Below, in pieces: positions 414-24,968 of a stretch of DNA of 64,000 nucleotides. The notes beneath the pieces are model-generated. The model made no database searches. It had not been told where the DNA came from and was given only the letters and a program-made list of their open reading frames with translations. The DNA comes from Methanosarcina barkeri str. Wiesmoor (GTDB taxonomy: Archaea; Halobacteriota; Methanosarcinia; Methanosarcinales; Methanosarcinaceae). The stretch lies in assembly GCF_000969985.1 (NCBI RefSeq), contig NZ_CP009526.1, positions 2,976,001 to 3,040,000 of the forward strand, written 5' to 3'. Each line of letters opens with the position of its first letter. Position 1 is the stretch's first letter. The translations under genes were made by a program, and so were the position numbers.

Positions 414-1043
414 TTACCGGCGAGAGAGTTTGAGGAATACAAGCACAAGTGCCGAAATTGCAGTTACTAAACTAAAAGCTGGTGCAGACGCTGGTAAAGA
501 TGAATTTTCTGAAGCTGGCTGCCCAGAAATTGGTTGATTTTCGGATGCAGGTTGCTCAGAAGTAGGAGTTTCGCCTTGGTAGTGTTCGTTGGAGATTGTG
601 CAGTAGGCAACTGTAAAACCACTGTTTACCAAAATATCTCCTGTATTAAAATCGTTTATCTGATAAACAATGTCAATTGGCATAGAGCCTCCAGCCCACT
701 TTTCAGTAGGCTTAATTGTCCATTGATAGAGAATACTGGAGTTTTCTTCCATTACATCAGCCCGATATACATTCGTTTTTGAAGTTGAACCATTTATAAT
801 TTCAAAATAACCTTCTCCGATCTCACTTAACTCTACAGACACCTCTGACTTTTGAGAAACGGTAAGGTTTATACCGACAGTAAAAGGTTCTCCAATCTTT
901 AGAACCGGCTTTGCAACTTCAGTACCTGGAAGAAGTTTATTATTGTAATATACATCCATTTTGCCATATGGACTATCTGCAGCTACGTTTCCTGTTAATA
1001 AAACTATACAAAATGCTCCAATTAGAATCAGTTTTGCTCTCAT
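414..1043 (-). CDS. Sarcinarray family surface protein S9 (last in array)
   Basis: This is a 209-residue predicted exported protein. It has an N-terminal signal peptide (about residues 1-22), then the family hallmark SPYGKMDVYYNNKLLPG and a KIGEPF motif. Near residue 145 is AYCTISNEHYQGETPTSEQP, followed by a Ser/Pro/Gln-rich linker and a C-terminal tripartite tail of small residues, a hydrophobic helix (FSLVTAISALVLVF) and basic residues. That tail resembles archaeal sorting or anchoring signals. The centre is of type I (LTVSQKSEV...EIGEGYFEI). It is almost identical in DNA to S1 at the other end of the array: I count about eight amino-acid differences, mostly near the C terminus. The function of the family is unknown; location at the cell surface is inferred. 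Confidence 0.85.
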   Translation of the reverse strand: MRAKLILIGAFCIVLLTGNVAADSPYGKMDVYYNNKLLPGTEVAKPVLKIGEPFTVGINLTVSQKSEVSVELSEIGEGYFEIINGSTSKTNVYRADVMEENSSILYQWTIKPTEKWAGGSMPIDIVYQINDFNTGDILVNSGFTVAYCTISNEHYQGETPTSEQPASENQPISGQPASENSSLPASAPAFSLVTAISALVLVFLKLSRR

Positions 1044-1112
1044 ATTTCTGCACCTAATTCTGAGATAAGATTATCGTGTCCTGCTTTCACTATAGAATAG
1101 CTTCAAGTTCAT
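1044..1112 (-). pseudogene. Minimal remnant of the long gene's 3' end
   Basis: Between S8 and S9 the minus strand encodes ELEAIL, which matches an internal site of the long protein. After two stops comes AGHDNLISELGAEI, which matches its last residues. Everything between is deleted. The ATG of S9 still overlaps the old stop codon as ATGA, as it does at the intact copy. Confidence 0.7.
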
Positions 1113-1739
1113 TTACTGTCGAGATAATATGAGGAATACAAGCACAAGTGCCGAAATTGCAGTTACTAAACTAAAAGCTGGTGAAGATGCTGGTGAAGAT
1201 GAATTTTCTGAAGTTGGCTTTTTTGAAGTGGGTTGGTTTTCGGACTCAGACTGCTCAAAAGTAGGAGTTTCGCCTTGGTAATGTTCGTTGGAGATATAGG
1301 GATAAGCTACTGTGAATTCACCTTGAACCAGAGGTTTATCTTCACCGACATTATGTATTTGATACCAAATATTCACAGGCATTGTTCCACCTTCCCATTC
1401 TCCAGTTGGTTTTAGTATCCATTCGTAAGTATATGTTCCAGGATCTAAGGATTCAAAATATAACTTTTTATCAAACTCTGAAGGACCAGTTATAACTTCA
1501 TAAGGTGTTCCCACTCTTAAACTGCAAATTTTTACAAATAATATCGATGTCTGGTTCAATGTTAAATCAATTTTTACTTTAAACGGTTCTCCTATTTTCA
1601 GTGTAGGTTTAACTACTTCTTTTCCCGGTAAAAGCTGATCATTATAGTAAACATCTATAGTACCATATTGAGAACCTGCTGAAACGATATTTGTCAACAA
1701 AAGAAGTACCATTCCAAGTATAAAAATTCTAAATTTCAT
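1113..1739 (-). CDS. Sarcinarray family surface protein S8
   Basis: This 208-residue member has a signal peptide of its own type (begins MKFRIFILG) and the family start GSQYGTIDVYYNDQLLPG. Its centre is of type II: LTLNQTSILFVKICSL, PYEVITGPSEF, and a YFESLDPGTYTYEWILKP block shared with S6 and S3. The last 60 residues, with the QGETPT linker and anchor helix ending FLILSRQ, are close to all other copies. It starts two bases after the stop of the orphan domain ORF 1742-2080, so the two are probably co-transcribed. Confidence 0.85.
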   Translation of the reverse strand: MKFRIFILGMVLLLLTNIVSAGSQYGTIDVYYNDQLLPGKEVVKPTLKIGEPFKVKIDLTLNQTSILFVKICSLRVGTPYEVITGPSEFDKKLYFESLDPGTYTYEWILKPTGEWEGGTMPVNIWYQIHNVGEDKPLVQGEFTVAYPYISNEHYQGETPTFEQSESENQPTSKKPTSENSSSPASSPAFSLVTAISALVLVFLILSRQ

Positions 1740-1741
1740 GA

Positions 1742-2080
1742 TTATTCACCAAATTGTGCAACAAGAGTTTCATATCCAGCTGATTTTTCAGTAGAACCAC
1801 CTGTTTTATCTCCAACTCCTTTTGGACCAGGCCCAACTATAGTATTAGAGTACACAACAAATTGAAATGTTAGTGGAACGTTATCTCCAATGTATTTTCC
1901 ATTGTGTAAGATTGAATCATCTTTTCTGATGTACATCTGTCCTTTATGCCCAAAGTAAGGTTTAGGAATAACTTCATTATCGTTATCGTTGACTTTAAAT
2001 TCATTATACATTCCAACTGCTTCATATGACCACACATTAACCGTAAAAATCCAGTATGATGGCAATACCTGCGATCCCAT
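1742..2080 (-). CDS. Orphan C-terminal domain of the long surface protein (open copy)
   Basis: This is an uninterrupted frame of about 112 residues, beginning MGSQVLPSYWIFTVNVW and ending KSAGYETLVAQFGE. It corresponds to the last ~120 residues of the long protein encoded at 8531-12889. A deletion joined ...GVANGI directly to the LPPHW region, and an ATG in the new frame can start translation. It has no signal peptide or membrane helix. It is the only truncated copy in the array that still reads through the whole domain. It may be a chance survivor rather than a functional gene. Confidence 0.5.
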   Translation of the reverse strand: MGSQVLPSYWIFTVNVWSYEAVGMYNEFKVNDNDNEVIPKPYFGHKGQMYIRKDDSILHNGKYIGDNVPLTFQFVVYSNTIVGPGPKGVGDKTGGSTEKSAGYETLVAQFGE

Positions 2081-2136
2081 TCGCAACTCCTATTTTGATG
2101 TCAATACCCCTCTATTTAGAATAGCCTCAAGTTCAT

Positions 2137-2766
2137 TTACTGTCGAGATAATCTGAGGAATACAAGCACAAGTGCCAAAACCGCAGTTACTAAACTGAAA
2201 GCTGGTGCAGACGCTGGTGAAGAGGAATTTTCTGAGGCTGACTGCCCAGAAATTGGTTGATTTTCGGATGCAGACTGCTCAGAAGTAGGAGTTTCGCCTT
2301 CGTAGTATTCGTTGGAGATTGTGCAGTAAGCAACTGTAAAGCCGCCATTAACGAGTCTATCACCCGTTTCAAAATCATCTATTTGATATACAATGTCAAT
2401 TGGTATAGAGCCGCCAGCCCACTTTTCAGTAGGAGTTACTGTCCATTTATACATTAAAGAAGAATTTTTCTCAATTACATCTGCCCTATATTTATTCATT
2501 TTTGAAGTTGGACCATTTACAATTAAAAAATACCCGTCCCCAATTTCACTTAACTTTAAAGCCACTTCTGATTTTTGGTAAACAGTTAAATTTATACCAA
2601 CAGTAAAAGGCTCTCCAATTTTTATAACCGGTTTTGCTATTTCTTTCCCAGGTAAAAGCTCATCATTATAGTAAACATCAATTTTGCCATACGGACTATC
2701 CGCAGCTACACTTTCTGTTAACAAAATAATACAAAATATCCCAATAAGAATCAATTTTATTTTCAT
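2137..2766 (-). CDS. Sarcinarray family surface protein S7
   Basis: This 209-residue member has a signal peptide beginning MKIKLILIGIFC, related to those of S1 and S9. It carries SPYGKIDVYYNDELLPG and a type I centre (LTVYQKSEVALKLSEIGDGYF), plus the conserved tail with the YYEGETPT variant and the anchor helix. The start codon overlaps the stop of the upstream decayed domain by 4 bases (ATGA), preserving the translational-coupling geometry of the intact S1 junction. Confidence 0.85.
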   Translation of the reverse strand: MKIKLILIGIFCIILLTESVAADSPYGKIDVYYNDELLPGKEIAKPVIKIGEPFTVGINLTVYQKSEVALKLSEIGDGYFLIVNGPTSKMNKYRADVIEKNSSLMYKWTVTPTEKWAGGSIPIDIVYQIDDFETGDRLVNGGFTVAYCTISNEYYEGETPTSEQSASENQPISGQSASENSSSPASAPAFSLVTAVLALVLVFLRLSRQ

Positions 2767-3351
2767 ATTTCTGCACCCAATTCTGAAATAAGTTCATCAT
2801 ATCCAGCTGATTTTTCAGCAGAATCACCGATTTTATCTCCTACTCCTTTTGGACCTGGACCAACTACTGTAGCAGAATACCCACTAAAATGGAAGGTCAT
2901 CTGTGTATTATCTCCAAGCCACAAAGTACTTTCATCATTATTTTTTTGAAGGGTGTTTGATGTATTCATCTTGTCTCACATACCTTTGTCCTTTATGCCC
3001 AAAATAAGGTTCAAGAATTACCTCGTTATCGTTATCAATAACAGTAAATACCTGATATTTTCCCACAATTTCATAATTCCACACATTAACCGTAAAAATC
3101 CAGTGTGGAGGCAATACTGGTAACCCACATGGAACAACTGCCATTGTCCTGTCCAGTCTTTTTGAAATTTTATATCCGATTTCACCAGAATATTTGTCAG
3201 CAGTTTTATTTTCCAGGTTTTTCAGCTCGCCATCAGTTATTCCAAAACCGACATCAATAGCTTCATTTTTTTACTGTAACTGTTCAGATCCCATTTGCAA
3301 CTCCGATTTTGATGTCAATACCCCCTCTATTTAGAATAGCTTCAAGTTCAT
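2763..3351 (-). pseudogene. Long decayed copy of the surface protein C-terminal region
   Basis: The minus strand encodes a region matching about the last 190 residues of the long protein. It is broken by frame changes near 3260-3290 and at a 7-base A/T run near 2941-2947, where the frame ending HPSKK is replaced by the frame containing NNDESTLWLG. The second part, ending ISELGAEI, is open down to the S7 start. It is one of the two longest remnants in the array. Confidence 0.75.
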
Positions 3352-3978
3352 TTACTGGCGAGATAATCTGAAGAATACAAGCATAAGTGCCGAAATTGCA
3401 GTTACTAAACTAAAAGCTGGTGCAGATGCTGGTGAAGGTGAATTTTCTAAAGCTGGCTTTTTTGAAGTGTGTTGATTTTCGGTTTCAGGTTGCTCAGAAG
3501 TAGGAGTTTCGCCTTCGTAGTATTCGTTGGAAACATGAGGGTACGCAACTGTAAATTCTCCTTTTACAGCAGGCTCATCTTCTCCCTCTTCGTGTACCTG
3601 GTACCAGAAGTTTAGGGGCATAGACCAATCTGCTGATTCTTTGGTAGGCTTCAAAACCCATTCAAAAGTATATATTCCCGGATCTAAGGATTCAAAGTGT
3701 TTCTTTTCAGCAAATTTAGAAGGACCTTCAATTACCTCATAAGGAGATTCAGATCCAATACTATCAACTTCAATAAATAATCTTGATTTTTGATTTAGTA
3801 TTATAACTATCTTTACCTTAAATGGCTCCCCAATCTTCAAAACTGGTTTTGCAACTTCTTTTCCAGGTAGTATTTTATCATTATAATAAACGTCAATTGA
3901 GCCGTAGGGAGAAGATGCAGAAACAATGTCAACAAGCGACAGTAAAAGAAACCCTAAAATTAGAACTCCAGCTTTCAT
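3352..3978 (-). CDS. Sarcinarray family surface protein S6
   Basis: This 208-residue member has the MKAGVLILG signal peptide shared with S2, S3 and S5, the SSPYGSIDVYYNDKILPG start and a type II centre (ILNQKSRLFIEVDSIG, SPYEVIEGPSKF, HFESLDPGIYTFEW). It has AYPHVSNEYYEGETPT and the common anchor tail. A GGAG-like ribosome site (AGGAGAAAGCAAATG) precedes the start. It is preceded by the short-type remnant. Confidence 0.85.
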   Translation of the reverse strand: MKAGVLILGFLLLSLVDIVSASSPYGSIDVYYNDKILPGKEVAKPVLKIGEPFKVKIVIILNQKSRLFIEVDSIGSESPYEVIEGPSKFAEKKHFESLDPGIYTFEWVLKPTKESADWSMPLNFWYQVHEEGEDEPAVKGEFTVAYPHVSNEYYEGETPTSEQPETENQHTSKKPALENSPSPASAPAFSLVTAISALMLVFFRLSRQ

Positions 3979-4189
3979 TTGCTTTCTCCTAATCTTGATA
4001 AAAGATATTCGTATTCTATTGATTCTTCAGTGCTTTTTCCCAGTTTATCCCCAACACTTTTCTTCTTCTTTCACTTCATGGTTTCACACATTAACCGTAA
4101 AAATCAGGTGCATTAGCATACCTGCGATTCATTTGCAACTACTATTTTGATGCCAATACCCCCTCTATATAGAATAGCTTCAAGTTCAT
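3979..4189 (-). pseudogene. Short-type remnant of the long gene's 3' end
   Basis: The minus strand keeps three islands of the long protein: a piece before the ANGI site, IFTVNV followed by a stop, and SVGDKLGKSTEESIEYEYLL at the end. The parts between are deleted. The same deletions occur at 4814-5026, 6854-7065 and 7693-7904, so the block was copied after it decayed. Confidence 0.7.
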
Positions 4190-4813
4190 TTACTGGCGAG
4201 ATAATCTGAAGAATACAGGCACAAGTGCCGAAATCGCAGTTACTAAACTGAAAGCTGGCGCAGACGCTGGTGAAGATGAATTTACTGAAGCTGGCTTTTT
4301 TGAAGTGGGTTGGTTTTCGGACTCAAACTGCTCAAAAGTCGGAGTTTCGCCTTGGTAGTGTTCGTAGGAGATTGTGCAGTAGGCGGTGGTGAATTCACTG
4401 TTTACTACGGGTTCAGGATTGCCTTTTTCTACTATTGAATAGTGAAAATTGATAGGAAGCGATCCACCAGCCCATTTATCTGTTGGTACTACTGTCCATT
4501 CAAAAACATGAGATTCATTTGCTTTCAAAATTGTACTTGAGTATCGATTCATTTTTGAAGGTCCATCTACAACCTCAAAATAACCTTCCCCTAGTTCGGT
4601 GAGTTGACCAGATACTTTGTATTCTTGATAAACAGTCATGTTTACTTTGAGATTAAATGGCTCTCCAATCTTTAAGAGAGGTTTTGCCACTTCTGCGCCT
4701 GGAAGAAGCTTATCATTATAATAAACATCAATTGAGCCGTAGGGAGAAGATGCAGAAACAATGTCAACAAGCGACAGTAAAAGCAACCCTAAAATTAGAA
4801 CTCCAGCTTTCAT
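4190..4813 (-). CDS. Sarcinarray family surface protein S5
   Basis: This 207-residue member has the MKAGV signal peptide and first ~45 codons almost identical to S2, S3 and S6. Its centre is a type I variant (MTVYQEYKVSGQLTELGEGYFEVV, HVFEWTVVPTDKWAGG, IVEKGNPEPVVNS) that looks closest to S4. The conserved linker and anchor tail follow, ending VFFRLSRQ. The mixture of one signal-peptide group with another centre type suggests recombination inside the gene. Confidence 0.85.
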   Translation of the reverse strand: MKAGVLILGLLLLSLVDIVSASSPYGSIDVYYNDKLLPGAEVAKPLLKIGEPFNLKVNMTVYQEYKVSGQLTELGEGYFEVVDGPSKMNRYSSTILKANESHVFEWTVVPTDKWAGGSLPINFHYSIVEKGNPEPVVNSEFTTAYCTISYEHYQGETPTFEQFESENQPTSKKPASVNSSSPASAPAFSLVTAISALVPVFFRLSRQ

Positions 4814-5026
4814 TTGTTTTCTCCTAATCTTGATAAAAGATATTCGTATTCTATTGATTCTTCAGTGCTTTTTCCCAGTTTATCCCCAACACTTTTCTTC
4901 TTCTTTCACTTCGTAGTTTCACACATTAACCGTAAAAATCAAGTGTGGCGGCAATACCTGCAATCCCATTTGCACCTCCGATTTTGATGTCGTTACTCAC
5001 TCTATTCAGAATAGCTTCAAGTTCAT
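4814..5026 (-). pseudogene. Short-type remnant of the long gene's 3' end
   Basis: Reading the minus strand gives AILNRVSNDIKIGGANGI joined to AGIAATLDFYG and a stop. The first part matches the long protein; the second is its LPPHWIFTV region in the wrong frame. A terminal island that includes SVGDKLGKSTEESIEYE follows. The deletion pattern is the same as at 3979-4189. Confidence 0.75.
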
Positions 5027-5659
5027 TTACTGGCGAGAGAAGCTGAAGAATACAAGCATAAGTGCCGAAATTGCAGTTACTAAACTGAAAGCTGGTGCAG
5101 ATGCTGGCGAAGATGAATTTTCTGAAGATGGCTGCCCAGAAATTGGTTGATTTTCGGTTTCAGGTTGCTCAGATGTAGGAGTTTCGCCTTGGTAATGTTC
5201 GTTGGAGATTGTGCAGTAGGCGACTGTAAAACCGCTATTGATAAGAGGTTCAGAGTCACCATGAGCAAGAATTGTATAATATATATCTAGAGGCAATGAT
5301 CCACCACTCCACTTTTCAGTAGGTTCAACAGTCCATTCGTATTCTTTAGAAGAATTTGCTTCTAAGATGTCTGGTTTGGAGTATTCTTCGATTCTTGATG
5401 TTGGACCTTTTATAATTTTGAATGAATCTTTTTCCATGCACGATAAAGAGACATAAACATCACTTTTTTGATATACTGTCAGATTAATTTTTACTTTAAA
5501 TGACTCTTCAATTTTTAAAGTAGGCTTAGCCGTTTCTTTTCCAGGTAAAAGTTTGTCATTATAATATACATCCATTGAACCATATTGAGATTCTGCAAGT
5601 GTGGTGCTTGGAATAATTAACAAAAATATAACCAAAGAACATACCCATCTCATTTTCAT
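5027..5659 (-). CDS. Sarcinarray family surface protein S4
   Basis: At 210 residues this is the longest member. Its signal peptide (MKMRWVCSLVIFLLIIPSTT) is unlike the others. It carries ESQYGSMDVYYNDKLLPG and a type I-like centre (LTVYQKSDVYVSLSCMEKDSFKII, ILAHGDSEPLINS) related to S5. The common linker and anchor tail end VFFSFSRQ. A strong AGGAGGG ribosome site lies 8-9 bases before the ATG. Confidence 0.85.
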   Translation of the reverse strand: MKMRWVCSLVIFLLIIPSTTLAESQYGSMDVYYNDKLLPGKETAKPTLKIEESFKVKINLTVYQKSDVYVSLSCMEKDSFKIIKGPTSRIEEYSKPDILEANSSKEYEWTVEPTEKWSGGSLPLDIYYTILAHGDSEPLINSGFTVAYCTISNEHYQGETPTSEQPETENQPISGQPSSENSSSPASAPAFSLVTAISALMLVFFSFSRQ

Positions 5660-6229
5660 TCTATTTTCCCTCCTAATTATTTCAGAAGGTTTTCATAATC
5701 TTCTGATCTTTCATCCGATCCTCCATTTTTATCTCCAACACCTTTTAGCTCTGGGCCTATTATTGTTGTCGCGTAACCGCTAAAGTGGAAAGTAACCATT
5801 TCATTGGTTCCTAGACTCAAGGCAATCCCATTTTTTATCTTTTTTAAAAGGGTGAAATATTGGTGTTTTTTCTCTAACGTATTTCTGCCCCTTATGCCCG
5901 AAATAAGGCTTAGGAATTGCTTCATTATCGTTATCAATAACAGTAAATGCCTGATATTTTCCCACAATTTCATAAGTCCACAAATTAACCGTAAAAACAA
6001 CTCGCATGGAACAACTACCATTGTCCGATCCAGTTTTTTCAAAATTTTATCTCCGATTTCACCGGACTATTTGTCAGCAGTTTCATTTGCTAGGTTTTTC
6101 AGCTCTCTATTGATTCTTCCAAAACCGGTATCAATAACTTCACTTTTTTTACTGTAACTGCACAGATCCCATTTGCAACTCCGATTTTGATGTCAATACC
6201 TCCTCTATTTAGAATAGCCTCAAGTTCAT
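5660..6229 (-). pseudogene. Long decayed copy of the surface protein C-terminal region
   Basis: The minus strand matches the last ~190 residues of the long protein. A deletion after KKLDRTMVVVPCE removes LPVLPPHW and shifts the frame, so FTVNLWTYEIVGKYQAF is read in a second frame. The original frame returns at about 5830 (IALSLGTNEMVTFHFSGYA...). The region before 6042 contains a stop (TADK then stop) and further frame changes. A 121-codon open frame spans 5677-6042, but half of it is out of register. Confidence 0.7.
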
Positions 6230-6853
6230 TTACTGGCGAGAGATTCTGAGAAATACAAGCACAAGTGCCGAAATTGCAGTTAATAAATTGAAATCTGGTG
6301 CAGATGCTGGTGAAGGTGAATTTTCTGAAGATGGCTGCCCAGAAATTGATTGATTTTCGGTTTCAGGTTGCTCAGAAGTAGGAGTTTCGCCTTCGTAGTA
6401 TTCGTTGGAGATTGTGCAGTAGGCGATGGTGAATTCTCCTTTTATAGCAGGTTCGTCTTCTTCAGGAAGGTTAATCTGATACCAAAAGTTTAATGGAATA
6501 GAACCTCCAGCCCATTCATCTGTAGGTACAATCGTCCATTCAAAAGTATATTTACCAGAATCTAAAGACTTAATGTATTTTGTTTTTTCAAATTCTGATG
6601 GACCATCTATAACTTCAAAAAAATTTCCACCTAAACTGCAAACTTGCACAAACAAAGTACTGGTTTGATTTAATGTCATCTCTACTTTTACTTTGAAAGG
6701 CTCTCCAATTTTAAGTGTAGGTTTTGCAACCTCTTTTCCAAGTAGTATTTTATCATTATAATAAACATCAATTGAGCCGTAGGGAGAAGATGCAGAAACA
6801 ATGTCAACAAGCGACAGTAAAAGCAACCCTAAAATTAGAACTCCAGCTTTCAT
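6230..6853 (-). CDS. Sarcinarray family surface protein S3
   Basis: This 207-residue member has the MKAGV signal peptide and SSPYGSIDVYYNDKILLG, with a type II centre (MTLNQTSTLFVQVCSLGGNFFEVI, YIKSLDSGKYTFEWTIVP). The EYYEGETPT linker and an anchor tail with APDFNLLTAISALVLVFL follow. It combines the S2/S5/S6 5' end with the S6/S8 type of centre. Confidence 0.85.
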   Translation of the reverse strand: MKAGVLILGLLLLSLVDIVSASSPYGSIDVYYNDKILLGKEVAKPTLKIGEPFKVKVEMTLNQTSTLFVQVCSLGGNFFEVIDGPSEFEKTKYIKSLDSGKYTFEWTIVPTDEWAGGSIPLNFWYQINLPEEDEPAIKGEFTIAYCTISNEYYEGETPTSEQPETENQSISGQPSSENSPSPASAPDFNLLTAISALVLVFLRISRQ

Positions 6854-7065
6854 TTGCTTTCTCCTAATCTTGATAAAAGATATTCGTATTCTATTGATTC
6901 TTCAGTGCTTTTTCCCAGTTTATCCCCAACACTTTTCTTCTTCTTTCACTTCATGGTTTCACACATTAACCGTAAAAATCAAGTGTGTTAGCATACCTGC
7001 GATCCCATTTGCACCTACGATTTTGATGTCAGTATCTACTCTGTTCAGAATAGCTTCAAATTCAT
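6854..7065 (-). pseudogene. Short-type remnant of the long gene's 3' end
   Basis: The islands, stops and deletions are the same as at 3979-4189, and it is nearly identical in sequence to 7693-7904. It begins in the AILNR region (gttcagaatagctt on the plus strand at about 7044) and ends at the S3 start. Confidence 0.7.
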
Positions 7066-7692
7066 TTACTGTCGAGATAATCTGAGGAATACAAGCACAA
7101 GTGCAGAAATCGCAGTTACTAAACTGTAAGCTGGTGCAGATGCTGATGAAGATGAATTATCTGAAGCTGGCTTTTTTGAAGTGGGTTGATTTTTGGAAGC
7201 AGGCTGCTCAGAAGTAGGAGTTTCGCCTTGGTAATGTTCGTTGGAGATTGCGCAGTAGGCGATGGTAAATTTTCCTTCTACTAAACTCTCTACTGTCTCA
7301 AAGTCATTTATTTGATATACTAAGTTAATTGGTATAGATCCACCTGCCCAGTTACCAGTGGGTCTAACAGTCCACTCATACATTTTAGTAGAGTTTTCAT
7401 CCAGAATTTCAGTTCCATAATCTTTCATTTTAGAAGTCGAACCAGTAATAATCTCAAAGTCATTGTCTCCAATTTCAGACAACATTACGGAGACGTAACA
7501 TTTTTGGTAAACTGTGAGATTAATACCAACGTTAAATGGCTCCCCAATCTTCAAAACTGGTTTTGCAATCTCTTTACCAGGTAGTATTTTATCATTATAA
7601 TAAACGTCAATTGAGCCGTAGGGAGAAGATGCAGAAACAATGTCAACAAGCGCCAGTAAAAGCAACCCTAAAATTAGAACTCCAGCTTTCAT
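7066..7692 (-). CDS. Sarcinarray family surface protein S2
   Basis: This 208-residue member has the MKAGV signal peptide joined to a type I centre (LTVYQKCYVSVMLSEIGDNDFEII, INDFETVESLVEGKFTIAYC). The HYQGETPT linker is followed by the anchor tail APAYSLVTAISALVLVFLRL. With S1, it shows that neighbouring members can share the centre type but not the 5' end. Confidence 0.85.
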   Translation of the reverse strand: MKAGVLILGLLLLALVDIVSASSPYGSIDVYYNDKILPGKEIAKPVLKIGEPFNVGINLTVYQKCYVSVMLSEIGDNDFEIITGSTSKMKDYGTEILDENSTKMYEWTVRPTGNWAGGSIPINLVYQINDFETVESLVEGKFTIAYCAISNEHYQGETPTSEQPASKNQPTSKKPASDNSSSSASAPAYSLVTAISALVLVFLRLSRQ

Positions 7693-7904
7693 TTGTTTTC
7701 TCCTAATCTTGATAAAAGATATTCGTATTCTATTGATTCTTCAGTGCTTTTTCCCAGTTTATCCCCAACACTTTTCTTCTTCTTTCACTTCATGGTTTCA
7801 CACATTAACCGTAAAAATCAAGTGTGTTAGCATACCTGCGATCCCATTTGCACCTACGATTTTGATGTCAGTATCTACTCTGTTCAGAATAGCTTCAAGT
7901 TCAC
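7693..7904 (-). pseudogene. Short-type remnant of the long gene's 3' end
   Basis: This is the first truncated copy after S1. It has the same deletion set as the other three short remnants and is nearly identical to 6854-7065 over most of its length, including the frameshifted LPPHW island and the terminal KSTEESIEYE island. Confidence 0.7.
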
Positions 7905-8534
7905 TTACTGTCGAGACAATCTGAGGAATACAAGCACAAGTGCCGAAATCGCAGTTATTAAACTGAAAGCTGGTGCAGATGCTGATGGAGATGAATTTTC
8001 AGAAGCTGGCTGCCCAGAAATTGGTTGATTTTCGGATGCAGGTTGCTCAGAAGTAGGAGTTTCGCCTTTGTAGTGTTCGTTGGAGATTGTGCAGTAGGCA
8101 ACTGTAAAGCCACTGTTTACCAAAATATCTCCTGTTTTAAAATCGTTTATCTGATAAACAATGTCAATTGGCATAGAGCCTCCAGCCCACTTTTCAGTAG
8201 GCTTAATTGTCCATTGATAGAGAATACTGGAGTTTTCTTCCATTACATCAGCCCGATATACATTCGTTTTTGAAGTTGAACCATTTATAATTTCAAAATA
8301 ACCTTCTCCGATTTCACTTAACTCTACAGACACCTCTGACTTTTGAGAAACGGTAAGGTTTATACCGACAGTAAAAGGTTCTCCAATCTTTAGAACCGGC
8401 TTTGCAACTTCAGTACCTGGAAGAAGTTTATTATTGTAATATACATCCATTTTGCCATATGGACTATCTGCAGCTACGTTTCCTGTTAATAAAACTATAC
8501 AAAATGCTCCAATTAGAATCAGTTTTACTCTCAT
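7905..8534 (-). CDS. Sarcinarray family surface protein S1 (first in array)
   Basis: This 209-residue member has a signal peptide (MRVKLILIGAFCIVLLTGNVAA), SPYGKMDVYYNNKLLPG, a type I centre and the conserved C-terminal anchor. Its ATG overlaps the stop of the long gene by 4 bases, so translation is probably coupled and the two products probably work together. As the only member beside an intact long gene, it is the natural founder of the array. It is near-identical to S9, which lies about 7 kb away. Confidence 0.88.
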   Translation of the reverse strand: MRVKLILIGAFCIVLLTGNVAADSPYGKMDVYYNNKLLPGTEVAKPVLKIGEPFTVGINLTVSQKSEVSVELSEIGEGYFEIINGSTSKTNVYRADVMEENSSILYQWTIKPTEKWAGGSMPIDIVYQINDFKTGDILVNSGFTVAYCTISNEHYKGETPTSEQPASENQPISGQPASENSSPSASAPAFSLITAISALVLVFLRLSRQ

Positions 8535-11500
8535 ATTTCTGCACCTAATTCTGAAATCAGATTATCGTATCCTGCTGATGTTTCAATGGAACCACCTGTT
8601 TTATCTCCAACACCTTTCGGACTAGGACCAACAATAGTAGCTGAGTAGCCATTGAAATGAAAAATCATTTGTTTATTTCTTCCAATCCATATACTACTTC
8701 CATCCTCATTTTTTCTTGATGGATGATTGATATGTTCTTCAGTTCTGACATACCTCTGCCCCTTATGCCCGAAATAAGGTTCAGGAATTACCTCGTTATC
8801 GTTATCAATAACAGTAAATACCTGATATTTTCCCACAATTTCATAAGTCCACACATTAACCGTAAAAATCCAGTGCGGCGGCAATACCGGCAACCCGCAT
8901 GGAACAGCTGCCATCGTCCGATCCAATTTTTTTGAAACTTTATCTACAATTTCACCAGAATACCTGTCAGCAGTTTCATTTGCCAGATTTTTCAGCTCAC
9001 TATCGATTCTTCCAAAACCGGTATCAATAACTTCACCTTTGTTTACTGTAACTGCGCAGATCCCATTTGCAACACCGATTTTGATGTCAGTATCTACTCT
9101 ATTTAGAATAGCTTCAAGTTCATCAGGTTCAACAGGCGGGTTTGAATTTCGAATTTCCGCTTTCATTATAGAAGCAAGTTCAACTGCCAGTTCATCCGTT
9201 GTAGATTTTTCGAGAATTTCATTGTCCGAAAGCCCATTAAGGTAAGTTGTCGTGACTTCACTGATTCGACTATCCTCTATGCAGTCGGAAATAACAGGGT
9301 TTGAGCTAACCTCTTGAACTACATTTTCAAGAATCTGAGATCTCATTTCCTGCGCATACATGTGTTTCAGGTTGTAAACTTCTATGTCAAGACGAGTTGT
9401 ATCCAGCGAAATATTCTGCTCGCTGAGGCTCTGTTCAAGCAGGAAAACTTCTGCGTTCAGGTTGGAAATACTCTGGCTGATTTGATGTGCCATTTCAGTT
9501 TTTACGTAATCATCGCTTGAAGCGATAATATCTCCAATTTCCTCGGAAATGCCGGTTGTGAAAATGCAGGTGTTCCAGACACCCAGGGGATAAATCGTTT
9601 TTCCGTTCATGGTGTCAGCCCATTCGTATTCCTCTCTCAGGTCAAAATCAGGATCATGGTATAGATAGTTCGGTTTCTGGTCAACGATCAGGGTCAGATT
9701 TTCTGTCCAGTTGTATTTGCTTTCCGGCTGGCCGGTGACGGTCATTGTTGAGATTATACCCATGTCCTTCCCCAGAGCCGAAGCAGCCCTCTCGATTGCG
9801 GGATTGTTAAAAAGAGTCATAGAGCCCGAGGTCACGCTGTCAAGCAGACCGGTATCAAGGCCTTTTTTCTCAAGGGCCTTGAGGACGTAGGAGTTAAGGT
9901 CAGAATCCAGTTTACGGTTTTTCTGGTCGATATCTTCAAGCAGCTTGCTGTACGCTTCACTTTTTGCAATGTACCGGGCCGAGTCACTTGAAGCGTACAT
10001 TGCTCCTGACGACGTGAGGTACTGTTCTTTATTTACGTAAGCTTCCCGGTCTTTTTCCAGTTCCATAATAAGTTTTTCAGCAGTTTCTACCTGAAGGACT
10101 GTTGGGTTCTGACCAGGAGAATCAAGAAGAGAATAATTGAAGGATGGATTGTCTTTTTCGACCGAATCCAGCATTACCAGCACTTCTTCTGCCATAATTC
10201 GGTGCAACCAGGGTGGGATATTACAATTAACAGCATGTTTGGGCAGATATTTTCCATCAGGATAGGCCCAGAACATGCTTTCTATTGTCCTTAAATCCAC
10301 ATACGCATCCCTGTATTTGTCGGCAGCATCGGAGCAGCATGAGTCAAACCTTTCGGTTTTAGTTGTGCTGTTGTCTATGCTGCTGTTTTTGCTGTTGTCT
10401 TTGCTGTTGTCTGTACCATTGTCTATGCTGTTGTCGATGCCATTATCTGTACCGTTATCTACATTTTCAGCACTGCCTATACTGCCTGTGTTGTTCAAAT
10501 AGAAGGTTGTTTCCCGGTATTCCCGCTCTACAGGATCAGAATAAGTCAACAAACCGGAATAGCCGCCTGCTGGAGGACATCTGTGGTAGATTATTGTTAG
10601 GTTTTCAGATTCGGTTTCGGCATGGGAAAGTGATACAATATTGTTTTTGCCTACAGCTTGTGAATTCGAGTCGCTTGACGTATCAGAATGCGTCACAGTT
10701 GTATAATTTCCGTCAGGTAGCTTTTCCCTGGTTTTCCATCTGTAGGTATAATCGTAATTGTAGTCTATTTTCCAATTTGTCCTTATTTTGTAGGATATAT
10801 CGTACCTTATTCTCCAGTCAAAAATATGGTCTTCCTTATCCAGGTAGCCTTCGCTTCGGTTTTCGACCATAAGAGTATCGTTACTTACATAGGAGAAATG
10901 AGGTTCAATGTTCACATCGGTTATATCAACTGATATCAGGCTGACAGACGCCGATGTGACCGACCAGCTGGTTACATCTCCTTTAGGAGGGTCAATTGAA
11001 GGGTTTAAGGATTCGAAGTAAGAAATTTGGGTTGGATAGCTCCAGGAATAAGACGGCACAAGAGACCCCCTGTGTGTTCCGGATGCATAATATCTTGAAT
11101 CCCAGCTAATGGTTTGCCTGCTGAACGAAACTGATTCCGGGTCAAAATTTGCAGTGATTATAGAGTTCGTCGGGTCCGGAGAATCAAAGCCGTCTCTCAG
11201 GATATGTCCCTGAACCGATGCGGTATAAACGCTGTCCGTGACCGAATGGATGAGATCAGGATTTTCCTTTTTCCACACATGGTCGTTGAAGACCCAGCCG
11301 TCAAGAACTCCGCCGGTATAATCGGAGGCTGAAAGTTCGATTTTCGAACTTTCGGAGAGATCTTCAAAAGAGGTATTTGTCACTTTAAGGGATTCATCGA
11401 TACTTTTTTCAATATCTAGAGAGAAGGATTTATTCTGGGCAAGCGAATCGTAAGTCGTTGTCAGGTTTACGCCTTTATCCGCTTCGTAAGCCGAAACTGA

Positions 11501-12889
11501 GGTGTTAAGACTAGTAGAGCTATTAAGCCCGACAGAGTTCAGACTGGAGTTCAAACTGGAGTTCAGGCTCAAATCTGTTTTCTCGCTTCTGGAATTGAAA
11601 GTGTCTTCGTAGAGAACTTTTCCATTATAGTAGCTTGTGTAGGTAAGGGCCAGAGGGTCAACCGAATCAAAAATCCTCTTCTGGGTATAAAGTGTAGCCC
11701 CATTGATCGAGCTTGAAAGGGCAGGGTTGGTCAGGATATTGAGAGGGCCGTTTGCATAATGCTGCCAGGGACCGTAGATAAAAGTCCTCAGGTTTGTTGC
11801 TCCAAGCACAAGATTCGATGTCGAGTCAAGCCTCGAAGTGTTTCCAAGCTCTGTTTCGTACTCCCTGACAAGCTCTTCGAGAAGAGGTTCCCTTGACGTG
11901 ATCAGTGTGGAAAGATTCATACTGCTATTGAAACTTTCTCCGGATTCAAGGTTAACAAGAGTATAGTTCAGGGCAGGAATTTCAAAAACATAATAAATAG
12001 TGTAATTTTTGTCAGTAGATGAAACGCCAGCAGATGAAACGCCAGCAGATGAAACGCCAGCAGATGAAACGCCAGCAGATGAAACGCCAGCAGGTGAGAT
12101 TTCACGCTGCAGAGTTCCGGTTACTTTTCTTATTTTTATCTGTTCGGGTTCTATATCAGGTTCAACATTAATTGCGTATTCCCTGAAAGTGTGGCTGTTT
12201 CCCTGGTAGTTTGTAGAAAGCAGCGTGTTAAAAGCGTCTGCTGTGATATCTTTTATCGGGCTTACTTCAATCACGAACCAGTCAGAGGCTTTGAGTTCGT
12301 CTCCGTAATAAAGTTCAATTGAGGCATATCCCGAGGCTGCTGAATCTGGAATTTTCACGGCTTCCTCGAGTGAAACTTTCTGAAAAAAGCCGGTTGCCTG
12401 GCCGTAGTTCACATTCTTGATTTCTCGGCCTGAAGAGTCATTGACAATCAGTAGAATATCCCGGTTTTTCCAGAAAGCTTCGATCTTGCCCCAGATATCT
12501 GAAGGCAGATTTATAGAAATCTGAAGTGTGTCCTCTCTTTCAAGGTTCTGGTTTTTTGAGATTACCATAAAATCATCTTCAGAAAACCTGCTAACTGCAT
12601 TGCCTTCAGGCAGGATTACAGGATGTTCTCCCTGCCATTCAAGAGCTTCCATTCCTGCATAATTGAGGCAGCGAGCAAGGTCGAACGAGGCAAGATTGAT
12701 GGCATCCTGCCTGGGATCACTATTCTCGGTCGTATAAATGGTTTCAGCGACTTCGTTATCTATTTTTAGAAGATATACTGAAGTAAAAGTTGCAGCAAGC
12801 AAAATGAAAATTCCGATCACGGTATAGGGTATATAGGCACAGCTATCTTCAATGAAAGATGAAAAATCGTTAGATAATTTCCCGACCAT
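8531..12889 (-). CDS. Long membrane-anchored surface-type protein, head of the array operon
   Basis: This encodes about 1452 residues from the ATG at 12889. The open frame extends five codons further to a TTG, but GGAG sits about 9 bases before the ATG. An N-terminal hydrophobic helix (IPYTVIGIFILLAATFTSVY) is followed by a very long extracytoplasmic-type region rich in Asn, Ser, Tyr and Thr with many N-glycosylation-like sequons. It includes low-complexity blocks: AGVSS units, NSSLNSSLN and DNGTDNSIDN-like runs. The C-terminal ~120 residues (PPHWIFTVNVW..., GHKGQRYV, GPSPKGVGDK, ISELGAEI) form the domain found truncated between the S genes. It resembles, from memory, large proteins near archaeal pilus loci (DUF7286-like), but I cannot confirm this. 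The role is unknown; a surface filament or adhesin partner of sarcinarray proteins is possible. Confidence 0.75.
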   Translation of the reverse strand: MVGKLSNDFSSFIEDSCAYIPYTVIGIFILLAATFTSVYLLKIDNEVAETIYTTENSDPRQDAINLASFDLARCLNYAGMEALEWQGEHPVILPEGNAVSRFSEDDFMVISKNQNLEREDTLQISINLPSDIWGKIEAFWKNRDILLIVNDSSGREIKNVNYGQATGFFQKVSLEEAVKIPDSAASGYASIELYYGDELKASDWFVIEVSPIKDITADAFNTLLSTNYQGNSHTFREYAINVEPDIEPEQIKIRKVTGTLQREISPAGVSSAGVSSAGVSSAGVSSAGVSSTDKNYTIYYVFEIPALNYTLVNLESGESFNSSMNLSTLITSREPLLEELVREYETELGNTSRLDSTSNLVLGATNLRTFIYGPWQHYANGPLNILTNPALSSSINGATLYTQKRIFDSVDPLALTYTSYYNGKVLYEDTFNSRSEKTDLSLNSSLNSSLNSVGLNSSTSLNTSVSAYEADKGVNLTTTYDSLAQNKSFSLDIEKSIDESLKVTNTSFEDLSESSKIELSASDYTGGVLDGWVFNDHVWKKENPDLIHSVTDSVYTASVQGHILRDGFDSPDPTNSIITANFDPESVSFSRQTISWDSRYYASGTHRGSLVPSYSWSYPTQISYFESLNPSIDPPKGDVTSWSVTSASVSLISVDITDVNIEPHFSYVSNDTLMVENRSEGYLDKEDHIFDWRIRYDISYKIRTNWKIDYNYDYTYRWKTREKLPDGNYTTVTHSDTSSDSNSQAVGKNNIVSLSHAETESENLTIIYHRCPPAGGYSGLLTYSDPVEREYRETTFYLNNTGSIGSAENVDNGTDNGIDNSIDNGTDNSKDNSKNSSIDNSTTKTERFDSCCSDAADKYRDAYVDLRTIESMFWAYPDGKYLPKHAVNCNIPPWLHRIMAEEVLVMLDSVEKDNPSFNYSLLDSPGQNPTVLQVETAEKLIMELEKDREAYVNKEQYLTSSGAMYASSDSARYIAKSEAYSKLLEDIDQKNRKLDSDLNSYVLKALEKKGLDTGLLDSVTSGSMTLFNNPAIERAASALGKDMGIISTMTVTGQPESKYNWTENLTLIVDQKPNYLYHDPDFDLREEYEWADTMNGKTIYPLGVWNTCIFTTGISEEIGDIIASSDDYVKTEMAHQISQSISNLNAEVFLLEQSLSEQNISLDTTRLDIEVYNLKHMYAQEMRSQILENVVQEVSSNPVISDCIEDSRISEVTTTYLNGLSDNEILEKSTTDELAVELASIMKAEIRNSNPPVEPDELEAILNRVDTDIKIGVANGICAVTVNKGEVIDTGFGRIDSELKNLANETADRYSGEIVDKVSKKLDRTMAAVPCGLPVLPPHWIFTVNVWTYEIVGKYQVFTVIDNDNEVIPEPYFGHKGQRYVRTEEHINHPSRKNEDGSSIWIGRNKQMIFHFNGYSATIVGPSPKGVGDKTGGSIETSAGYDNLISELGAEI
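10365..10475 (-). repeat. In-frame low-complexity DN(G/S)(T/I/K) tract
   Basis: This is a run of degenerate 12-base units inside the long surface protein gene. It encodes alternating Asp-Asn-Gly/Ser-Thr/Ile/Lys and keeps the frame. The opposite strand shows a misleading Cys/Leu-rich open frame. Confidence 0.75.
12014..12092 (-). repeat. 15-bp in-frame minisatellite (AGVSS x5)
   Basis: About five near-perfect copies of a 15-base unit (cagatgaaacgccag on the plus strand) encode AGVSS repeats at about residue 270 of the long surface protein. The unit length is a multiple of three, so copy-number changes would keep the frame. Confidence 0.9.
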
Positions 12890-12904
12890 CAACCCTATCT
12901 CCAA

Positions 12905-16780: not shown

Positions 16781-17965
16781 AGTTCCCCTCAAAAAAGTAC
16801 ATTCAATTTTTCGTCTGAATTTTAATTAATGTCATAAAAAATCGTAAATTTTATTGAGAAGGATTTTCAATCCTTCTCTGGTGATTATTACGAAACCTCC
16901 ACTTATACCACTAAATGAAGATTTCAAATGGCAATTGTTGTCCGAAATATTAAATGTTTTTGATTTGAGATTCTGTAAGCAAACTCTTACAAGGAGGGGC
17001 ATTGTGCCCCTCCACAGATCAGTACCTACTATAAAAATTGTTCTTCTAAGCATGTTTTTTTCTTGTGAAATCTCTTATTCTATAAAGGAATTAAAAGAAA
17101 GAGAAAGCTTGAGAAACTTTTTAAAAATCAGTTTAGTACCAACTGAAAAGGAAGTTTATGGCATTCTTAGTAAGTATGAACCCCAAGAGTTTACTGCTTT
17201 TGTTTTTGAAATATTGAATGATTTATGCCCTAAGAGAAAAAAATGGATCAAGAGACATTATTATTGATAGTACTGACATAAACCTTAACCTGAACTGGCA
17301 CGCTAAAAAGATTACCAAAGAAAGCCTAAAAAACAAAGAATACAAGTGGGACCATTCAACCCATAGAGGTTTCTTCATTGGTATGAAACTTACTCTTGCA
17401 CTTGATTCTCAAACATTAAAACCTTTAGCGTTTCTGATTAATGAAGCAAATGTAGCAGAACCTAAAATTTATCCTGAAATACTTAAAGAACTTAAAAGAA
17501 AGAGAATAATAAAAGCAGGTGACGTTATCTATGCTGATAGAGGATACTATTCCTATGAAAACTACGTTATATCTGTAAGAAATTTTAAGGTAGTACCTTT
17601 AATTTTTCCAAGGAAAAACTGTAATTTTAAGAAACTTTTCAATATGTTTAGATATCCTCTGAAAATATTTGATTTAAGAAGAAATACTGAAAAAGAAATT
17701 AAATTCTACAAAGAAATAATTGCAAAGTTTAAAGAGTTAATAAGCAAATGGAAAGAACTCAGATTTGTAAGGTCAATTATAGAAGATGTATTCAAAATAG
17801 CGAAGAAAGCATACTCTATGGAGAATTTACACAGATATACAAGGAGTTCTGTCCAAAAATACTGTTCTTTAGCTGTACTTTTAGTAGGGGCAACCTGTAA
17901 ATTACGGTATTAATGAAAGGAAGGAATTGCAAGCCTTCTCTGAATGAAGAAATTAAGAGGGGACT
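16781..17965 (+). mobile_element. Insertion sequence, IS4/IS5-superfamily DDE type
   Basis: This element of about 1.18 kb carries a broken DDE transposase. The putative ends are short imperfect inverted repeats: AGTTCCCCTC at 16781-16790 and GAGGGGACT at 17957-17965. A perfect hairpin (GAGAAGGATT-TTC-AATCCTTCTC, 16856-16878) lies inside the left end. A related imperfect one (AAGGAATTGCAAGCCTTCTC) lies at about 17920-17940. I could not identify a target-site duplication. Confidence 0.7.
16854..17913 (+). pseudogene. Frameshifted IS4/IS5-type transposase
   Basis: The first frame (16854-17267) gives the N-terminal part, ending FEILNDLCPKRKKW. The second (17218-17913) begins in the +1 register and carries the catalytic core: IIDSTDINLNLNWHAKK with the first Asp, VIYADRGYYSYENY with the second, and RSIIEDVFKIAKKAYSMENL with the Glu and a R-x3-E-x6-K spacing typical of IS4-like enzymes. 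The frames meet at a run of seven A residues (agagaaaaaaatgg, about 17229-17240). This could be a disabling indel or a programmed frameshift; I favour the indel because the second frame lacks its own start signals. Confidence 0.8.
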
Positions 17966-18182: not shown

Positions 18183-18689
18183 TTACATAAATCGTTCAAA
18201 TCTTTCCTTTTTCGCTTTACAGATAGGGCAGATGCCAGGCGGTTCGTCCATGGCACAGAGATATCCGCAAACCTTACATCTCCACACAGGTTTTGAAAGT
18301 TTCCCTGTAAATTCCATACTCTCTATCACCTCTGCTCTTTTCTTTTCTTCGGCTCTTTCAGCGTCCCTCTGTTCTTTCGGAGGACGCCTTTCAGGAATCG
18401 ATTCTACACTTCTTTCTCCCCGGATAACTTCATCCGAAACATAAAGTGCACAGTAACAGGCCCCGTAATCGTTCAGGTCGGGGTCTCTATAGTAGCAGGG
18501 ACAGACAATATCCAAGTCCTCTTCCAGATTGTTAGCAGAAAGTCGGCATGGACAGGACCAATAGCCATACCGCTGTTCATTCGCAAGCAACCCCCGTACA
18601 AGATCCTTTGTGAACTCAATATCAGGGTTGAGATGATATCCCGACTTTTCGACCTGATTATTCAAGCGCTTATAGACTTTGTCCACCAA
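18183..18689 (-). CDS. Ferredoxin:disulfide reductase with C-terminal rubredoxin domain
   Basis: This encodes 168 residues from a TTG. The first ~90 residues carry the ferredoxin:thioredoxin reductase catalytic-subunit cysteines (CPC at SCPCRLS, CPC at VCPCYY, CYC at ACYCALY), which hold a [4Fe-4S] cluster and the active disulfide. The last 45 hold a rubredoxin-type CKVCGY...CPICKAKK iron site. Reductases of this layout deliver ferredoxin electrons to an NrdH-type redoxin for ribonucleotide reduction in Methanosarcina (established for M. barkeri). The gene follows an NrdH-like gene on the same strand. Upstream, in frame, [14 protein letters not shown] is also encoded, and an AAGGAGG site lies 7 bases before a CTG at 18731, so the true start may be that CTG. 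Confidence 0.88.
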
Positions 18690-18753
18690 TTCATCGGTGA
18701 TGCCTTCTTCAGCGGCTTCCTCTTCTTTCAGCCCAATTCCTCCTTAAACAAAA

Positions 18754-18925
18754 TTTTATCAAAAACTTTTTCAAAAAAATTTTATAGAAAACTTTTTCAA
18801 AAAAATTTTTATCAAAAAACTTTTTCAAAAAAGTTTTATCAAAAACTTGTTCAAAAAAAGCTTTACCGAAAACTTTTTCAAAAAAAGTTTTATCAAAAAA
18901 CTTGTTCAAAAAAGTTTTATCAAAA
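18754..18925. repeat. 26-27-bp hairpin-forming tandem repeat, about 7 units
   Basis: The unit is TTTTATCAAAAACTTTTTCA plus AAAAAG, in seven slightly diverged copies filling the spacer between the NrdH-like gene and the reductase gene. Each unit contains an inverted repeat (AACTTTTT-C-AAAAAAGTT), so the transcript could form a row of A/U hairpins. Confidence 0.88.
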
Positions 18926-18945
18926 ATTGTTTCTTTTAGTCTAAT

Positions 18946-21846: not shown

Positions 21847-24968
<3,122 letters not shown>

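Follow-up and report, generated by a model that had tools for sequence, protein, structure and literature searches.

An exchangeable DUF7286 tip and its matched sarcinarray gene in Methanosarcina: a probable self/non-self recognition system

The 64,000-nucleotide stretch of the Methanosarcina barkeri str. Wiesmoor genome analysed here (NZ_CP009526.1, positions 2,976,001 to 3,040,000; hereafter the window) carries on its minus strand a long gene of the DUF7286 family and, directly downstream of it, nine sarcinarray (MAST-domain) genes, S1-S9, which span 414-8534 and encode proteins of 207-210 amino acids. The long gene tracks the species phylogeny up to residue ~1352, at the motif IFTVNVW, whereas its last ~100 residues, the tip, and the adjoining MAST domain do not, and tip and MAST occur as matched allele pairs. 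The locus is best described as a variable-tip/cognate surface partner system, probably devoted to self/non-self recognition. The original prediction for this DNA had seen an amplified hybrid of long-gene end and sarcinarray gene; it missed that the unit is an exchangeable cassette, in which a variable long-gene tip travels with its own S gene. The terms resident (S9, which adjoins the full-length gene) and array (S1-S8) denote position only.

The replacement of the tip is apparent from comparison with relatives, each species being represented by one genome. Most segments of the long gene are ~90-97% identical to those of the two nearest (G003 and G030) up to residue ~1350, after which identity falls to 45-65%. 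Synonymous divergence (dS) against G003, G030 and G004 is 0.16, 0.22 and 0.41 in the core versus 0.79, 1.31 and 1.26 in the tip, NG86 estimates being rough above dS ~1, and this jump implies sequence replacement and not fast protein change alone. When the distances of successive segments were correlated with those of the rest of the core in 19 full-length loci, r was mostly 0.7-0.8 in core segments, 0.20, -0.07 and 0.07 in tip segments, 0.01-0.07 in MAST segments and 0.53 in the S tail. The profile thus delimits a cassette: two conserved arms flank a block made up of the tip, the signal peptide and the MAST domain. The apparent left crossover arm is the IFTVNVW block, whose DNA TTTTTACGGTTAATGTGTGG occurs in 8 copies in the window against 0.02 expected.

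The exchange can be followed for individual alleles. The resident tip and S gene of G003 correspond to an array cassette of the window, R2+S2 (R denoting the long-gene remnant beside an S gene), with identities of 96.7% and 94.7%; the G003 tip matches R2 at 96.7% over 336 nt versus 79.0% over 586 nt for R9, the resident end here. In a three-way alignment the switch falls at ctggatttttacggttaatgtgtgg (IFTVNVW), and the match runs out after GETPT, within the conserved 3' portion of S. Likewise, the resident S of G030 is of the S7 type and that of G004 of the S5 type, and the S9 type, resident here, is found in the array of G004. Between R2/S2 and G002 dS was 0.91 in the core, 0.16 in the tip and 0.30 in MAST; alleles of distant species less diverged than the core suggest that tip and MAST alleles have been transferred between species. 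No relatives of the S genes were found among the viral contigs and plasmids searched, hence there is no sign of cassettes carried by either, and no recombinase was found beside the array.

The pairing of tip and MAST was analysed in 37 complete pairs. Their distances are correlated (Mantel r 0.66, rising to 0.71 for the variable middle of the tip; P=0.0002), and r between MAST and the 52 residues preceding the core/tip boundary is 0.08. With near-identical tips removed (30 pairs left), the tip middle gives 0.62 with MAST, and the signal peptide, encoded between the two, correlates at 0.34 with the tip and at 0.25 with MAST. In a sliding analysis the correlation drops over the conserved N-terminus of the mature protein, climbs back to 0.71 at S residues 114-143 and collapses at 144. 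The MAST belonging to the nearest foreign tip ranked first or second in 30 of the 37 pairs (permutation mean 2.4, maximum 10). This covariation suggestively exceeds what linkage alone would produce, the signal peptide used as reference being short and noisy.

All nine sarcinarray (TIGR04209) genes of the 4.9 Mb Methanosarcina host genome lie inside the window, each scoring >45 bits, well above the curated cut-off, and they belong to the sarcinarray/MAST families TIGR04209 and TIGR04204. As the original prediction held, remnants of the long gene occupy all eight gaps and the ELEAILNRV junction recurs: the stop codons of S2-S9 are each directly abutted by ATGAACTTGAAGCTATTCT or a near copy of it, that is, by the long gene from codon 1261 (ELEAILNRV). 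This is the single breakpoint in 8/8 gaps, which implies an ancestral unit of ~1.22 kb and agrees with the ~1.2-kb hybrid, running from the interior of the long gene to the end of the sarcinarray gene, that had been proposed. At the other side of each gap, read along the minus strand, the final bases of the long gene precede the next S start. Unique sequence follows the S1 stop directly, and a candidate for a ninth junction left of S1 (window ~120-160) did not rise above the shuffled expectation. Gaps R1 to R8 measure 69, 397, 585, 211, 213, 570, 212 and 212 nt, compared with 588 nt for the intact counterpart. One internal deletion is common to R2, R4, R5, R7 and R8 and a second to R4, R5, R7 and R8; these shared nested deletions indicate that already shortened units were re-amplified. 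The remnants bear stops, frameshifts and deletions, whereas all nine S frames are open. Of R1 just 69 nt are left, and the tip of R2 is still open and well conserved.

Of 31 genomes 22 have both DUF7286 and sarcinarray and the others have neither; the nine open copies of the window are the highest number in this set. About 20 Methanosarcina genomes share a layout in which a sarcinarray gene starts -4 to +6 nt from the end of a single full-length long gene; zero to several cassettes lie further downstream, each combining a C-terminal long-gene fragment with another sarcinarray gene (in G018, with broken contigs, the assignment of resident versus other copies is uncertain). The fragment breakpoints vary by lineage (about codons 1261, 1260, 1186, 1177, 1158 and 950); therefore, it is probable that hybrid units had several origins or that their ends were remodelled. 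Several species have fragments with open reading frames and a constrained pre-tip part (ratio of nonsynonymous to synonymous divergence, dN/dS, about 0.1-0.3 in the four compared). The proposed decay of the long-gene part beside open S frames thus describes the window and is not the rule, since tips are often open in the cassettes of other species. Array S copies number 37 across the genus, and 34 of them are intact; the tip is lost in 21 of the 37, and 18 of these 21 retain an intact S. Beyond Methanosarcina, further genera of the family also pair a DUF7286 gene with a ~200-amino-acid MAST gene, and fragment cassettes accompany some of these pairs. G006 has two separate full-length loci (L041 and L042), each with its own cassette and with different resident tips and S genes; in G005 (L055, 5635-7206) the long gene has large internal deletions (residues 193-546 and 621-1197) and interrupted frames, and its C-terminal part and S gene are still open.

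The array S genes are under purifying selection even where the tips have decayed, as orphan immunity genes are. For orthologous MAST domains dN/dS is 0.10-0.15 in most pairs and 0.36 for S7 versus G030; for pairs located in the array in both genomes it is 0.10 (S6/G004.5) and 0.13 (S7/G004.3). Among the array paralogues of the window, which are divergent alleles with about 50-80% amino acid identity, MAST is close to saturated at synonymous sites, whereas the tail has a low dS of 0.16-0.27, a mark of gene conversion in the 3' arm. Of the two objects of selection first suggested, variety of sarcinarray genes is favoured over copy number, because MAST dS between paralogues is near-saturated, the 3' tail is homogenised and alleles are common to different species. 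That partners are kept while their tips are lost argues against simple dosage as well as against a store that is entirely silent.

The long protein matches DUF7286 (PF23957) over residues 1059-1446 with 90.8 bits against a gathering threshold of 27, and a Pfam scan returned this family only, with no toxin family and no immunoglobulin (Ig) or CARDB match. The tips form one alignable frame throughout, with a variable loop. S9 has a predicted signal peptide and a C-terminal hydrophobic anchor, and its model is an Ig/macroglobulin-like sandwich with a predicted local distance difference test score (pLDDT) of about 75-93 over the domain. The best hits of a fold search with the S model (Z about 10) were domains of complement C3/C5 and A2ML1, a generic sandwich that tells fold and not function; a BatD/DUF11-like Pfam match was obtained for 2 of 12 sarcinarray members, and sequence searches against solved structures gave insignificant matches only for both alignments. 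From these predictions we infer that the long protein and S both act at the cell surface. Within the long protein two repeat regions differ in length between species, SSAGV near residues 270-295 (window about 12019-12097) and an NGTDN-like repeat near residues 800-835 (window about 10400-10507), both on the minus strand.

Exchange, pairing, cassette boundaries and purifying selection can be read directly from the sequences. In the system that we propose, a large, predicted surface-exposed DUF7286 protein would end in an exchangeable tip of ~100 residues, and the gene placed -4 to +6 nt downstream would encode a small membrane-anchored Ig/macroglobulin-like protein with a MAST domain matched to this tip. 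Tip, signal peptide and MAST would be swapped as one block between the resident position and the downstream cassettes, and from species to species, by homologous recombination in two conserved arms: IFTVNVW, where the core ends, and ISNEHYxGETPTSEQ with the anchor, at the 3' end of S. The S1-S8 array would then consist of displaced cassettes, whose tips decay once away from the full-length gene and whose S genes, being still selected, are presumably expressed. The tip may act as ligand or effector and S as its matching partner (receptor or immunity protein) in cell-cell self/non-self recognition, the cognate tip and MAST of one cassette binding each other, and the retained orphan S genes would widen the range of tips that a cell recognises or resists. 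A toxin with its immunity protein would be one version of such a system; however, tips that align in a single frame and have a variable loop are more in keeping with ligand-partner specificity than with a collection of unrelated toxins. Tentatively, the locus could serve allorecognition (kin discrimination) in these aggregate-forming archaea, with trans-species allele pairs, ligand tip and Ig/macroglobulin-like partner in one cassette, and orphans that recognise or tolerate the tips of others.

Several points weigh against recognition by tip and partner. Binding of tip to S, surface display, expression of the array and the recognition function itself are all deduced from sequence. No recognisable toxin or adhesin domain was found in the tip, and the AlphaFold model of the C-terminal 418 residues of the long protein has a mean pLDDT of 44, with 6 sequences in the alignment. 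Physical linkage by itself yields some covariation, so that the suggestive tip-MAST excess is not proof of contact, and the Mantel tests ignore the phylogeny of related sequences, which makes the P values optimistic. Switching of the resident site is read between species only, and some cassettes, R2+S2 for example, could behave as a silent store.

Polymorphic toxin systems (CDI, contact-dependent growth inhibition, and Rhs) possess a conserved core, an exchangeable C-terminal tip, an adjacent small cognate gene and downstream orphan pairs in which the tips have decayed and the small genes are retained. An archaeal system of this kind, the tip being a contact-delivered toxic domain, S a membrane immunity protein and orphan S retained immunity, is a possibility to which we give limited weight. 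The layout agrees in the conserved core with its exchangeable tip beside a cognate small gene, in the displaced tips and in the orphan partners kept in 18 of 21 tip-less array copies, but the tips share one alignable frame instead of unrelated toxin folds, Pfam gives no toxin family beyond DUF7286, no delivery system was identified and S is a predicted surface-anchored Ig-like protein. Since no toxin domain was found, the locus is not assigned to these systems. Tandem immunity arrays that recombine through conserved blocks are known: esaG and tipC of the type VII secretion system (T7SS) form strings of non-identical small immunity genes with such blocks, at 5' and 3' in tipC (PMC9484751). The tandem non-identical S genes resemble them; however, in T7SS the immunity genes alone are repeated, whereas here partner-gene fragments lie within each unit, and the proteins are unrelated.

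In antigenic variation of the pilE/pilS type one full-length site is accompanied by downstream partial copies, as is also the case here. Silent array donors that change the resident tip and S, allowing escape from viruses or other predators, would explain why the resident allele varies among close relatives and matches array cassettes, and would accommodate the near-identical S1 and S9 at opposite ends of the array. We nevertheless regard this explanation as rather unlikely. Most array cassettes of the window have no tip to donate, and the alleles are old and conserved (MAST dN/dS ~0.1), not diversifying. A cassette store is expected to hold incomplete donors without selection of their own, whereas the array S genes are complete, with starts, signal peptides and anchors, and under strong purifying selection. 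Neutral tandem duplication with gene conversion, linked tip and S hitchhiking without functional matching, is less probable still: tip and S are indeed physically linked and the 3' arms homogenised, but the array MAST domains show dN/dS ~0.1, the tip-MAST correlation surpasses that of the intervening signal peptide and the DUF7286-MAST gene order is family-wide. That tandem copies serve to raise the amount of sarcinarray protein is highly improbable, for in spite of a single junction in every gap and nine open copies, only S1 and S9 are near-duplicates and alleles are kept by type across species.

A close likeness to a matched tip and surface partner is found in the VARTIG modules of Thermococcales, in which a large protein has a hypervariable C-terminal region that recombines between species and is followed by variable small genes, some of them Ig-like, a layout likened to polymorphic toxin systems; its authors found no close counterpart in the other archaea searched (PMC8416519). 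Recombination of the C-terminal region between species is common to both. However, the protein there is arCOG07710 with C-terminal Ig domains and here DUF7286 with MAST, so that the locus is not a VARTIG module; moreover, here a separate small-gene family is matched to the tip and displaced copies are lined up in tandem directly beside the resident pair. In the literature searched, which comprised few subscription papers and not a 2019 survey of archaeal polymorphic toxins, no description was found of the link between sarcinarray and DUF7286, of the hybrid unit, of the exchange of cassettes or of the pairing of tip with MAST; sarcinarray is named there once, in a table, and DUF7286 never. Self/non-self recognition and cell-cell conflict are poorly characterised in archaea. 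The locus represents a system that spans the genus, has defined limits of exchange and supplies dozens of naturally matched pairs in archaea that can be cultured, and it places two families that have had no function assigned, DUF7286 and sarcinarray/MAST, in a common context. If the proposal is true, cognate tip and MAST should bind, mixed strains should respond according to allele, and orphan S genes should confer tolerance or wider recognition.

Table 1. Positions of the long gene, the sarcinarray genes and the long-gene remnants in the window
Feature	Positions	Strand	Remarks
S1 sarcinarray	414..1043	-	97.1% nt identical to S9; array end
R1 remnant	1044..1112	-	19-nt junction and last ~42 nt of tip
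S2 sarcinarray	1113..1739	-	94.7% nt identical to resident S of G003
R2 remnant with open tip	1740..2136	-	open reading frame 1742-2086; 96.7% over 336 nt to G003 resident tip
S3 sarcinarray	2137..2766	-	
R3 remnant	2767..3351	-	near full length, frameshifted
S4 sarcinarray, orphan	3352..3978	-	
R4 remnant	3979..4189	-	two internal deletions
S5 sarcinarray, orphan	4190..4813	-	MAST allele that of G004 resident S
R5 remnant	4814..5026	-	two internal deletions
S6 sarcinarray	5027..5659	-	orthologue of array S G004.5, 90.2% nt, MAST dN/dS 0.10
R6 remnant	5660..6229	-	near full length, frame broken
S7 sarcinarray, orphan	6230..6853	-	allele of G030 resident S (90% nt) and array S G004.3 (89.7%)
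R7 remnant	6854..7065	-	two internal deletions
S8 sarcinarray, orphan (without tip)	7066..7692	-	
R8 remnant	7693..7904	-	two internal deletions
S9 resident sarcinarray	7905..8534	-	4-nt overlap with long gene; signal peptide, MAST about 8091-8465, C-terminal anchor
Variable tip of long gene	8534..8848	-	codons 1353-1457
IFTVNVW block at core/tip boundary	8849..8869	-	conserved DNA TTTTTACGGTTAATGTGTGG; apparent left crossover arm
Long gene, 1457 aa	8531..12904	-	DUF7286 (PF23957) C-terminal region; one N-terminal transmembrane segment; core, codons 1-1352

The next large gene downstream of the array, about 0.6 kb to its left, encodes an 890-residue Roco protein that combines leucine-rich repeats with Roc GTPase and COR domains (positions 7190-9862 of locus L038, minus strand). 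A probable insertion sequence (window 16854-17913, plus strand) lies about 4 kb upstream from where the long gene starts; of its two overlapping frames the second is a DDE transposase (PF01609) that nothing ties to cassette exchange. A short open frame of a repeated KFYQKTFSK-like peptide (window 18633-18944, plus strand), beside a glutaredoxin-like gene, may be non-coding repeat DNA. Further on, a homoserine acetyltransferase-like alpha/beta hydrolase (window 21847-23592, minus strand) carries two CBS domains at its C-terminus and a long insert of low complexity (SSKTSSETS).

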